A stretch of 33,884 bases of DNA from Candidatus Methylacidiphilales bacterium. GTDB taxonomy: Bacteria; Verrucomicrobiota; Verrucomicrobiia; Methylacidiphilales; CAZTYG01. The notes under the pieces were generated by a model that made no database searches, was not told the origin of the DNA, and worked only from the letters and a program-made list of their open reading frames with translations. A program made the position numbers and the translations under genes. This document shows, in pieces, positions 29,659-33,665 of this stretch (its first letter is position 1; each line of letters begins with the position of its first letter). Location of the stretch: the NCBI GenBank assembly GCA_033875315.1, contig JANRJG010000010.1:1-33884 (forward strand). The letters run 5' to 3'.

Positions 29659-32397
29659 ATGAAAGAAATTAAAATTATCACTGATGACGGCATGTCCATG
29701 CACGACAAGGGGCAATTCTTTGAGAATCTAATTTCCAAGTTATTTGAAAAACAACGCTATCAAATAACTAATAATGTTCGGTTTACTGGAATGGAAATAG
29801 ATATCATTGCATCACATAAGGACAGAAATGAGACTGCGTGGATAGAATGCAAGGCCAGATTAAAGGAGGGCCTTAGCTCTAACGATATATATAGTTTTGA
29901 GGCCAAGGTGCGTAAAAAACAGGCAGAATATGGTTATTTTATATGCACAGAGGAATTTAAGAAAGAGGTGGCCGGAACAATCAGGGAATTTGAAGAAGAT
30001 GCAGATAAGCGATACAAGCATTTAATCTTTTGGGGGCCTCAAAAGTGCATAGATATTCTGCAAGAGGACAAGGAGATATTATTGCCGGAATATAATCTAT
30101 TTCACCCATACAATGTATCAAAAGAAATATTGGCGTATACGACCTTTGGGACTTGGTACGTTTTACTGCTTACAAATGGAATATCTCCAACACATGTTAG
30201 CGCATTGAACGCGAAAGACGGAAGCGCTCCAGATTCCAGTGTTCTATCAAAACTGTTTGAAAAGATCGAAGAGATTAACGGTTTAGAAGTATTTTCGATG
30301 GGGAAGTCTCTGGGGGAATCTCAGAATAATGGATCAACCGAATTAGTGTCGGACATAAAATCAAGTGAAAACTGGTATGACTATCTGCCCGCTTCTATCC
30401 ATCATTTTATAGGAAGACAAAATATTAGGAATAGAATATATAACTTTTTGGGAGATGTAAAAAACCAATCTACCAATAAAAGGGTTTTCTACCTTGAAGG
30501 CAAATCAGGTTGGGGGAAAAGTTCTATACTTTCAGAACTAAGAGGACGCGCGAAAAATAAGCAAAACAAAAACTGGCTCTACGTGTCTGTAATAGATACT
30601 AGAAGCGCTATCAGTGACGCTTTTGTTCAAGCGGCCTTTCAGAAGACGTTAATAGATTCGCAACGTTTCCATGGAATAGATCCATCAAATTTACATTTCA
30701 CATCAAAATATGACATAATTACATCAGATTCTATTCAGGCGATATTTCATAAGCTCAAGGTTGATAATAAAGTCTTGGTTTTGGTATTTGATCAATTTGA
30801 GGACGTGTTTAAAAAACCCGGTTTATTTGAAGCTTTTCACAGGCTTCTGCTTCAAACTAGTGACTCGGGTTCTAATTTTGTTATCGGTTTTTCATGGAAG
30901 TCGGAGCTTACGATCCCGGCCGATCTGCCAGCATACTCTTTATGGCAGCAAGCAAAAGATAGTGCTGAATTATTTTCGTTAGAGTCATTTCGCAAAGCTG
31001 AGATAAAAGGTGTAATTTCCCAATTGGAAAGGGAGATTAAGACACCTCTTCTTTCGGACTTAAAAAGAAAACTCGAGGAAAGTTCTCAAGGTTATCCATG
31101 GCTAACTAAGAAACTTTGCATACACGTTCTAAATCAAATTAAGTCTAAAGTTAAGCAGGAGACGATAATCGATAAACAGCTTGATTGTCGTTCCCTATTT
31201 CAAACTGATTTGGAGTCAATATCTAGCCATGAAGCTAAAGCATTAAAACTTATTGCTAAAAAGGCAAACCAAGGCGACTTCTTTGATAAAACAGAAGTAG
31301 GCGAGACGATTGATGAGAAGGAAGTTAACTCCTTAATCAATAAGCGTTTGATTATATTATCTGGGACAAAATACAATATATATTGGGATGTTTTTCGCGA
31401 GTACTTGATAACTGGAGAAGTTAGAGAAACCGGTGAATCTTATATCCTCCGAATGCCTGCAGACGCTTGTTGCGAAACTTTGCTACTATTCAAAACTGGC
31501 GAAAAAAGGTCGATTGGTTCTTTAACTAAAGCTTATCCTAATACCATTAGCCAAAGTAGTATGGGCAACATGGTTCGCCAGCTACGCCATCTTGGATTGG
31601 TAGAAAAAACAGGTGATAAATTTGCTCTGACAAAATTGGCTAATATTAAAACCAGGCAAGACTTTGAGAAATGGGCGTATAACAAACTTGCCACCCACGC
31701 CGTATATATCGCTTTACTCGCTAAAAAAACTGAAACAATAGAGCGTTCCGATATATTAATGGAATTCAAAAAGTCATTTCCTGGATTTCAATTCTCTGAA
31801 AATACGTGGAATATTTACGTTCAGTTTTTCATTAATTGGATTACCTTTGCCAAGCTTGAATTAGCAAATAGACTTTCGACTGTTTCTATCACAGGAGTCG
31901 CGAGAGGGCGCACTGGAACTATAGAGTCTTTTATGCCTCAAAACTCGTTTCAGGCGCTATGGGATAATTTTCTTAAAATCTACACCAAAGGTAGTGATGA
32001 CATCCCTGTAGCAACACTTCAGAAAATTTTATATGACCTAAAATTCATGCGATTGATCGAATATAAAAAAGGGAAAGTCGAATTCACCTTGATTGCAAAT
32101 AATGTCTATCTTAAAAGGAAAACCAGCCAAAGTAGGAAGTTATTTGCTCAATGTATGGCAAGAAGTGCTTATGTGGAAAAAGCCATAGCTCACATAGGTG
32201 ATAAAGCTCACGACAAAAAGAGCTTGCGTAAAATAATTCAGGCTGAACTGTCGCACATCAATTCTAACACTTATCGAAAATTTGCTTCGGGAAGAATAGC
32301 TTCTTGGGCGGAAGCTTACGTTGAACATGATTTAAGAGGCACGGGGTCAACACATGACGGGCTGTTGCCCGAAGCTTCTTTTCAGAACGGGGAATAA
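29659..32397 (+). CDS. Mrr-like nuclease fused to STAND-type P-loop NTPase, putative anti-phage protein
   Basis: A 912-residue protein, strikingly AT-rich (bases 29761-29820 have 18 G/C of 60). Residues 15-110 form a PD-(D/E)xK nuclease of the Mrr type: E22 (QFFENLISKLF), D48 (GMEIDIIA), E63-C-K65 (AWIECKARL). A linker leads to HHFIGRQNIRNRI (248-260). Then come Walker A GKSGWGKSS (281-289), Walker B VLVLVFDQFEDVF (372-384), a sensor-like strand FVIGFSWKSEL and the STAND-type G-x-P in SQGYPWLTKKLC (476-487). The C-terminal 400 residues are helical with winged-helix-like parts (SSMGNMVRQLRHLGLVEKTG). This is the plan of phage-sensing nuclease-NTPases (Avs/nSTAND-like). A TATAAA lies at 29644-29649; no Shine-Dalgarno is seen. 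The last about 18 residues are encoded by a repeat. All key residues look intact. The function is inferred from architecture. Confidence 0.85.
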   Translation: MKEIKIITDDGMSMHDKGQFFENLISKLFEKQRYQITNNVRFTGMEIDIIASHKDRNETAWIECKARLKEGLSSNDIYSFEAKVRKKQAEYGYFICTEEFKKEVAGTIREFEEDADKRYKHLIFWGPQKCIDILQEDKEILLPEYNLFHPYNVSKEILAYTTFGTWYVLLLTNGISPTHVSALNAKDGSAPDSSVLSKLFEKIEEINGLEVFSMGKSLGESQNNGSTELVSDIKSSENWYDYLPASIHHFIGRQNIRNRIYNFLGDVKNQSTNKRVFYLEGKSGWGKSSILSELRGRAKNKQNKNWLYVSVIDTRSAISDAFVQAAFQKTLIDSQRFHGIDPSNLHFTSKYDIITSDSIQAIFHKLKVDNKVLVLVFDQFEDVFKKPGLFEAFHRLLLQTSDSGSNFVIGFSWKSELTIPADLPAYSLWQQAKDSAELFSLESFRKAEIKGVISQLEREIKTPLLSDLKRKLEESSQGYPWLTKKLCIHVLNQIKSKVKQETIIDKQLDCRSLFQTDLESISSHEAKALKLIAKKANQGDFFDKTEVGETIDEKEVNSLINKRLIILSGTKYNIYWDVFREYLITGEVRETGESYILRMPADACCETLLLFKTGEKRSIGSLTKAYPNTISQSSMGNMVRQLRHLGLVEKTGDKFALTKLANIKTRQDFEKWAYNKLATHAVYIALLAKKTETIERSDILMEFKKSFPGFQFSENTWNIYVQFFINWITFAKLELANRLSTVSITGVARGRTGTIESFMPQNSFQALWDNFLKIYTKGSDDIPVATLQKILYDLKFMRLIEYKKGKVEFTLIANNVYLKRKTSQSRKLFAQCMARSAYVEKAIAHIGDKAHDKKSLRKIIQAELSHINSNTYRKFASGRIASWAEAYVEHDLRGTGSTHDGLLPEASFQNGE

Positions 32398-33479: not shown

Positions 33480-33665
33480 ATGCAGTTGATTTACCACGAA
33501 GAACGCGAAGTTCGCGAAGACATAAGGGGTTTTGGCAGTGAAAAACTCCAATCACCCATTGCTGAGTCTGAATCCAAGGGCCATGCGATTAAATGGTTCT
33601 GTATTTTTATTCATAGCCAACTGTTTCGACTTCGCGGCCTTCGCGAACTTTGCGGTGAACTGCAT
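33480..33665. repeat. large imperfect inverted repeat with CGCGAAG units
   Basis: ATGCAGTT followed by an ACCACGAAG...CGCGAAGTTCGCGAAG arm (33480-33519) is inverted in the arm ending ATGCAT-side GAACTGCAT (33628-33665); about 30 positions align with seven mismatches. The centre (33521-33627) holds no gene. The 33407-33884 stretch (478 bases) has no convincing gene and consists of this element and the dispersed repeat after it. Confidence 0.6.

Follow-up and report, generated by a model that had tools for sequence, protein, structure and literature searches.

A single-gene Mrr nuclease-STAND NTPase with a duplicated winged-helix C-terminus, a candidate anti-invader switch from a Candidatus Methylacidiphilales bacterium

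The gene and its predicted product

The window, which is the whole stretch of 33,884 nucleotides analyzed here, carries a single uninterrupted reading frame of 912 codons on the plus strand between positions 29659 and 32397. A preliminary description, made from the letters of the DNA, had given this frame with exactly these coordinates and this length. The predicted product of 912 amino acids joins an Mrr nuclease, an nSTAND1 NTPase, and a doubled winged-helix C-terminus in one chain.

The N-terminal PD-(D/E)xK nuclease occupies residues 1 to 140 (positions 29659 to 30078), with strands and helices in the structural model. It is followed by a small, conserved, and unnamed alpha/beta linker domain (residues 150 to 205, positions 30106 to 30273; 31% identity to the relatives), for which the model places strands at residues 152 to 161, 164 to 172, and 179 to 184 and a helix at 193 to 202. 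The nucleotide-binding domain (NBD) of the STAND part extends from residue 232 to 420 (30352 to 30918) and contains Walker A at 281 to 289, Walker B at 377 to 382, and the sequence GFSWK at 410 to 414. A helical domain with the G-x-P motif (residues 421 to 520, 30919 to 31218) and the STAND winged-helix domain (WHD; residues 521 to 590, 31219 to 31428), modeled in the order H-H-E-E-H, come next. The first C-terminal unit (residues 591 to 740, 31429 to 31878) and the second (residues 758 to 892, 31930 to 32334) are each predicted to be a winged helix plus a helical bundle, and between them is a flexible basic loop with a motif of the R/K-G-R type (residues 741 to 757, 31879 to 31929; pLDDT below 50 at residues 743 to 756). 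The part beyond the STAND core thus comprises about 300 residues (590 to 892) and not about 400, as had been proposed. A nonhomologous tail with the stop codon (32335 to 32397), disordered in the model, comes from flanking repeat DNA and overlaps the repeat D1 at 32342 to 32371.

Nuclease and STAND domains

Pfam matches above the curated cut-offs were obtained for Mrr_cat (PF04471, residues 18 to 105, E = 2e-9) and nSTAND1 (PF20703, residues 246 to 417, E = 1e-7), and both matches were present in 22 of 22 family members. An alignment of 22 rows, which contained the window protein's own phylum and members from eight others, revealed E22, D48, E63, and K65 of the nuclease, G284, G286, K287, and S288 of Walker A, the complete Walker B sequence FDQFED, and G478 and P480 of the G-x-P motif as invariant. 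The catalytic and Walker residues stayed invariant when divergent relatives from Escherichia coli, Streptomyces, Burkholderia, Fuscovulum, and Nostoc were added. The intact nuclease, Walker A and B, and G-x-P motifs noticed at first sight are consequently features of the family, and the window gene is, judged from its sequence, real and under selection and not a product of chance.

By its E...D...E-x-K set and the Mrr_cat match, the N-terminus classifies as an Mrr-type PD-(D/E)xK nuclease. A reading as an inactive restriction endonuclease was rejected because every catalytic residue has been kept; the match to NA-iREase1 barely reached its cut-off. The P-loop, Walker A and B, the G-x-P motif, the winged-helix domain, and the NLR-like predicted fold place the central part among the STAND NTPases of the nSTAND1 type.

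The full-length AlphaFold2 model, calculated with the family alignment, had a mean pLDDT of 80.9 and a pTM of 0.53, which indicates that the single domains are more trustworthy than their arrangement. Residues 232 to 707 of this model matched NLRP3, NOD2, NLRP9, and NLRC4 with Z values of 17 to 18 (VIA-align), and the Foldseek lists for the full model (PDB and BFVD) contained mostly generic AAA+ ATPases. A sequence search of the PDB yielded no relative of the window protein. The check by structure and profile that had been recommended therefore recovered Mrr_cat, nSTAND1, and an NLR-like core.

Base composition and borders of the gene

The GC content is 0.378 within the reading frame and 0.613 in the remaining window, in agreement with the earlier notion of an AT-rich gene in GC-rich DNA. 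The low GC content sets in about 60 nt ahead of the start codon and gives way within the final codons of the gene. The relatives extend to about residue 892, and the final 20 residues of the window protein are located in flanking repeat DNA. The limits of the base composition and the end point of the relatives together indicate that the gain comprised very nearly a single gene, with a stop codon that seems, from the sequence, to have been provided by the host flank.

Repeat borders, which had been put forward as a sign of transfer, could be recovered on one side only. Two 30-nt repeat copies that are 80% alike are present on the 3' side, together with a shorter related copy. No direct repeat of at least 9 nt and no inverted repeat of at least 10 nt leads from flank to flank, so that the search revealed neither a target-site duplication nor a terminal inverted repeat. 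With up to three mismatches allowed, the 23-nt repeat occurs once in the genome. An empty site was sought via the neighboring SDR gene, and no relative closer than the order and no listed match above 39% came up. At positions 33504 to 33654, close to the right-hand end of the window, there is also a 16-nt inverted repeat (CGCGAAGTTCGCGAAG) with a spacer of 119 nt.

Relatives and distribution

A single pass through about 85,000 species genomes yielded 25 loci with 34 to 43% identity in the best segment. They belong to Chloroflexota, Cloacimonadota, Bacillota, Bacteroidota, Ignavibacteriota, Campylobacterota, Pseudomonadota (Vibrio), and Vulcanimicrobiota. Farther relatives, on plasmids of Burkholderia, Fuscovulum, Nostoc, and Streptomyces and also in E. 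coli, scored 4e-68 or better with the family profile, with one of two E. coli copies matched in two pieces. A near-identical E. coli subfamily was present in 35 of 5426 genomes; NCBI labels the E. coli copies as "restriction endonuclease" or "nSTAND1 domain-containing NTPase." An E. coli relative of the window gene is recorded as WP_021536679.1. No homologue was found among 50,697 phage records, and IMG/VR contributed six.

Within the phylum of the window, a full-length match occurred in 1 of 289 sampled genomes, and this was the window's own genome, in which the gene is also the sole nSTAND1 match above the cut-off. Three loci from three phyla share 78 to 80% mutual identity, which means transfer unless the binning of the metagenome-assembled genomes is at fault. 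The proposed transfer agrees with this high identity, the patchy occurrence, and the GC contrast, and horizontal acquisition of the window gene is supported. The family is a patchily spread, mobile single-gene cassette.

Some copies are broken. One gene, flanked by two aconitase genes (L022:7959-11403), is split into two frames, indicating that decayed copies exist. Plasmid copies from Enterobacter and Salmonella (L041:5680-8183, L044:4769-6762) adjoin an IS3 element and have two annotated frames each, and the Enterobacter copy gave no match to the nuclease part.

Gene neighborhoods

No conserved partner gene was present across the 25 loci, as expected from the single-gene organization claimed before. 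In two of these loci (L017:7136-11662 and L025:7042-11716), from Sulfurospirillum and another Campylobacterales genome, the nSTAND nuclease gene is part of a tight operon; it starts 10 to 11 nt after a gene for an NgoPII-type restriction endonuclease and overlaps a C5-methyltransferase gene by 4 nt. This exact sandwich could mean that the protein is a component or guard of the restriction-modification (RM) locus, for instance, a backup killer that fires when RM fails. The two loci are closely related (85% identical), however, they are the only ones among the 25, and no conserved partner exists elsewhere, which makes such a role very unlikely.

The copy of E. coli strain 127 resides within a Rac-type prophage, while other E. 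coli copies are located in an island with genes for a GTPase and DUF905/DUF932 proteins and with phage-satellite-like genes. Upstream of the E. coli nSTAND gene is a gene for a putative membrane protein of 505 amino acids and unknown family (L052:11717-13234, L055:8713-10230), separated from the nSTAND gene by an IS30 remnant in the Rac-type prophage and the island alike. This protein had no PADLOC match and is possibly a partner or a second defense gene. A TOTE gene is located near L021.

A scan of 135 neighbors for defense genes, performed with PADLOC and Pfam and without a control set, returned type II methylases, recombinases, transposases, HipA, and TOTE amid many housekeeping genes. Contexts with RM, prophage, island, plasmid, and TOTE do exist, but most relatives are outside obvious defense islands, most of the 135 neighbors are housekeeping or unannotated genes, and no clear enrichment of defense genes emerged from the scan. 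The window gene has ordinary neighbors (SDR, TSP3, SIMPL). These neighbors, together with the frequent location of the family on plasmids, in prophage, and in islands, might be explained by a nondefense function as a nuclease-linked regulator or a selfish maintenance gene of mobile elements. This is improbable when the catalytic motifs are intact over many phyla and the gene stands alone, with no conserved mobility or antitoxin partner.

The duplicated C-terminus and its possible target

Modeled alone, the C-terminus reached a pLDDT of 88.5 and displayed two winged helices; behind each comes a helical bundle that closes on an invariant tryptophan residue, W727 or W883. Profile-profile comparison of unit 1 with unit 2 by hhalign gave P values of 1.4e-6 and 5.2e-7 over 120 columns, indicating tandem duplication of a winged-helix/helical unit of about 135 residues; L016 even has a partial third one. 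No TPR-like repeats were predicted, and the winged-helix, non-TPR C-terminus described before was thus present in the model. Unit 2 also matched AAA_assoc_C weakly (Pfam).

The leading structural matches of the C-terminal model were Nt.BspD6I (Z of 8.0 and 7.8) and FokI (Z of 6.8 and 6.5). They took ranks 1, 2, 3, and 8 and were the sole listed matches spanning 142 to 146 residues, albeit with Z values of about 8 that are inside the tool's range for models with no clear match and can be background. Foldseek found no match at E < 0.001, with E values above 0.04. The likeness to the DNA-reading parts of these enzymes, drawn from a model, is suggestive and no more. Both units are net positive, with means of +3.5 for unit 1 and +5.4 for unit 2, and are joined by the basic KGRG-like loop; the nuclease and residues 421 to 590 are negative. 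Unit 2 is not positive in L004, L008, and L016 and unit 1 not in L007, L012, and L019. Two members, by their length L020 and L021, contain helicase-associated (HA) domains at the tail.

The doubled FokI/BspD6I-like array may read invader DNA directly, as a modified base, an end, a structure, or a plasmid form, upon which the switch would license the Mrr nuclease. Such a protein would have more in common with an ATP-gated type IV restriction enzyme than with an Avs receptor for phage proteins. The structural matches, the charge of the units and their loop, the additional HA domains, and the RM operon in L017 and L025 are consistent with this tentative reading. It is also in line with the detection of methylated DNA by winged helices in type IV enzymes (PMC11037411) and the pairing of FokI-like winged-helix proteins with STAND proteins in BREX (BrxA/BrxB, PMC12839542). 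Nevertheless, winged helices make protein contacts as well, the units are not positive in every member, and the Z values may be background, so DNA sensing by the C-terminus is only suggested.

Alternatively, the C-terminus may bind a conserved phage protein such as terminase, portal, or another one, with the winged helices serving as a scaffold. This is possible to a similarly limited degree. The order of effector, STAND, and sensor is that of Avs, and Avs1 to Avs4 use nuclease effectors and recognize terminase or portal (PMC12931631). The C-terminus also diverges fastest: identity was 43% for the nuclease, 46% for the NBD, 52% for the WHD as the best-conserved segment, 29% for unit 1, and 17% for unit 2 as the lowest. 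A fast-diverging tail in an order of effector, switch, and sensor fits a receptor with a tail directed at a target that changes, and this gradient, as expected for a diversifying sensor, suggests such a role for the tail. On the other hand, TPR-like repeats were not predicted, no Avs model matched, and the protein has less than half the size of Avs3a. Winged-helix charge, FokI/BspD6I likeness, HA domains, and the RM operon point rather to DNA, and the Avs precedent rather to protein. Both are versions of the same switch statement, and the confidences attached to them do not sum to one.

Proposed function

The window protein is quite probably a single-gene, self-contained anti-invader switch with C-terminal sensing, ATP-dependent assembly, and release of a nuclease. 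As long as the cell is at rest, the STAND NTPase (residues 232 to 590) would keep the protein inactive. An invader cue sensed by the doubled winged-helix module would lead to nucleotide exchange and oligomerization through the NBD, and the assembly would gather the N-terminal Mrr-type nuclease domains for cleavage of either the invader DNA or, as abortive infection, all DNA of the cell. Analogy with Avs1 to Avs4 and bNACHT25 leads to the expectation that assembly and DNA cleavage follow upon recognition, and architecture and context would assign the protein an anti-phage role. Its probable role is an anti-phage or anti-plasmid alarm, of a general kind already known but from a family without a name.

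The observations behind the switch are the intact motifs, the predicted NLR-like core, the duplicated and fast-diverging C-terminus, the patchy mobile spread, and the missing conserved partner. The RM-sandwich operon of the two Campylobacterota, the E. coli prophage and islands, the plasmids, and the TOTE neighbor were counted for defense. Counted against the switch were the mostly housekeeping or unannotated neighbors of the family, the ordinary neighbors in the window, and the pTM of 0.53. The more specific statement, that a widespread unnamed STAND family senses invader DNA via a FokI-like array and is an ATP-gated hybrid of NLR receptor and restriction enzyme, is rather doubtful.

Comparison with known systems

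The principle is not new, since single-protein nuclease-STAND systems have been published (PMC9122126, PMC12169576, PMC12931631). The preliminary description had proposed a distinct family, and this holds for the sequence but not for the principle. No specific NCBIfam or PADLOC model, Avs included, matched the window protein, with at least Avs3a represented in NCBIfam, and none of the curated families found describes exactly this architecture.

Avs (AVAST) types 1 to 4 likewise contain an N-terminal nuclease, a central STAND NTPase, and a C-terminal sensor in one protein (PMC12931631). With 912 amino acids, however, the window protein is less than half as long as Avs3a (2083 model positions), and it combines an nSTAND1 core with a winged-helix duplication instead of the repeat sensor of Avs. 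In clade 6, bNACHT25 and bNACHT32 are also single proteins with an N-terminal PD-(D/E)xK DNase and an NLR-like switch, and the nuclease mutation D48A abolishes defense (PMC12169576). They were described with a NACHT module and an NCH1 helical C-terminus; Pfam assigns nSTAND1 and not NACHT to the window protein, which is modeled with a doubled winged-helix C-terminus, although its predicted core fold is NACHT-like. Proteins from P4 satellite hotspots join Mrr_cat to a STAND NTPase as one-gene defense candidates but were described with C-terminal repeats (PMC9122126). The nSTAND1 counter-invader proteins share the nSTAND1 clade and a network with restriction endonuclease effectors (PMC8195603), yet they were described with effector-associated adaptor domains, while the single chain described here unites a nuclease of active appearance with a winged-helix tail. 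Type IV enzymes of the winged-helix/Mrr kind contain an Mrr catalytic domain and winged helices, and a wH-Mrr-NTPase fusion has been mentioned (PMC11037411). Their winged helix is given there as N-terminal and their motif as PD-QxK, whereas the window protein has E-x-K and C-terminal winged helices with the STAND switch in between. BREX (PMC12839542) and Dnd-related systems (PMC10853773) have FokI-like winged helices that act alongside STAND proteins.

The triggers of the nuclease-STAND receptors in this literature are phage proteins, acting directly or via a host chaperone. New, according to the model, is a C-terminus formed by tandem duplication of a winged-helix/helical unit instead of TPR. 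The family adds an unlisted defense candidate present in culturable species, including E. coli, and its compact, phylum-hopping single gene with a DNA-reading-like tail makes NLR-type DNA sensing directly testable.
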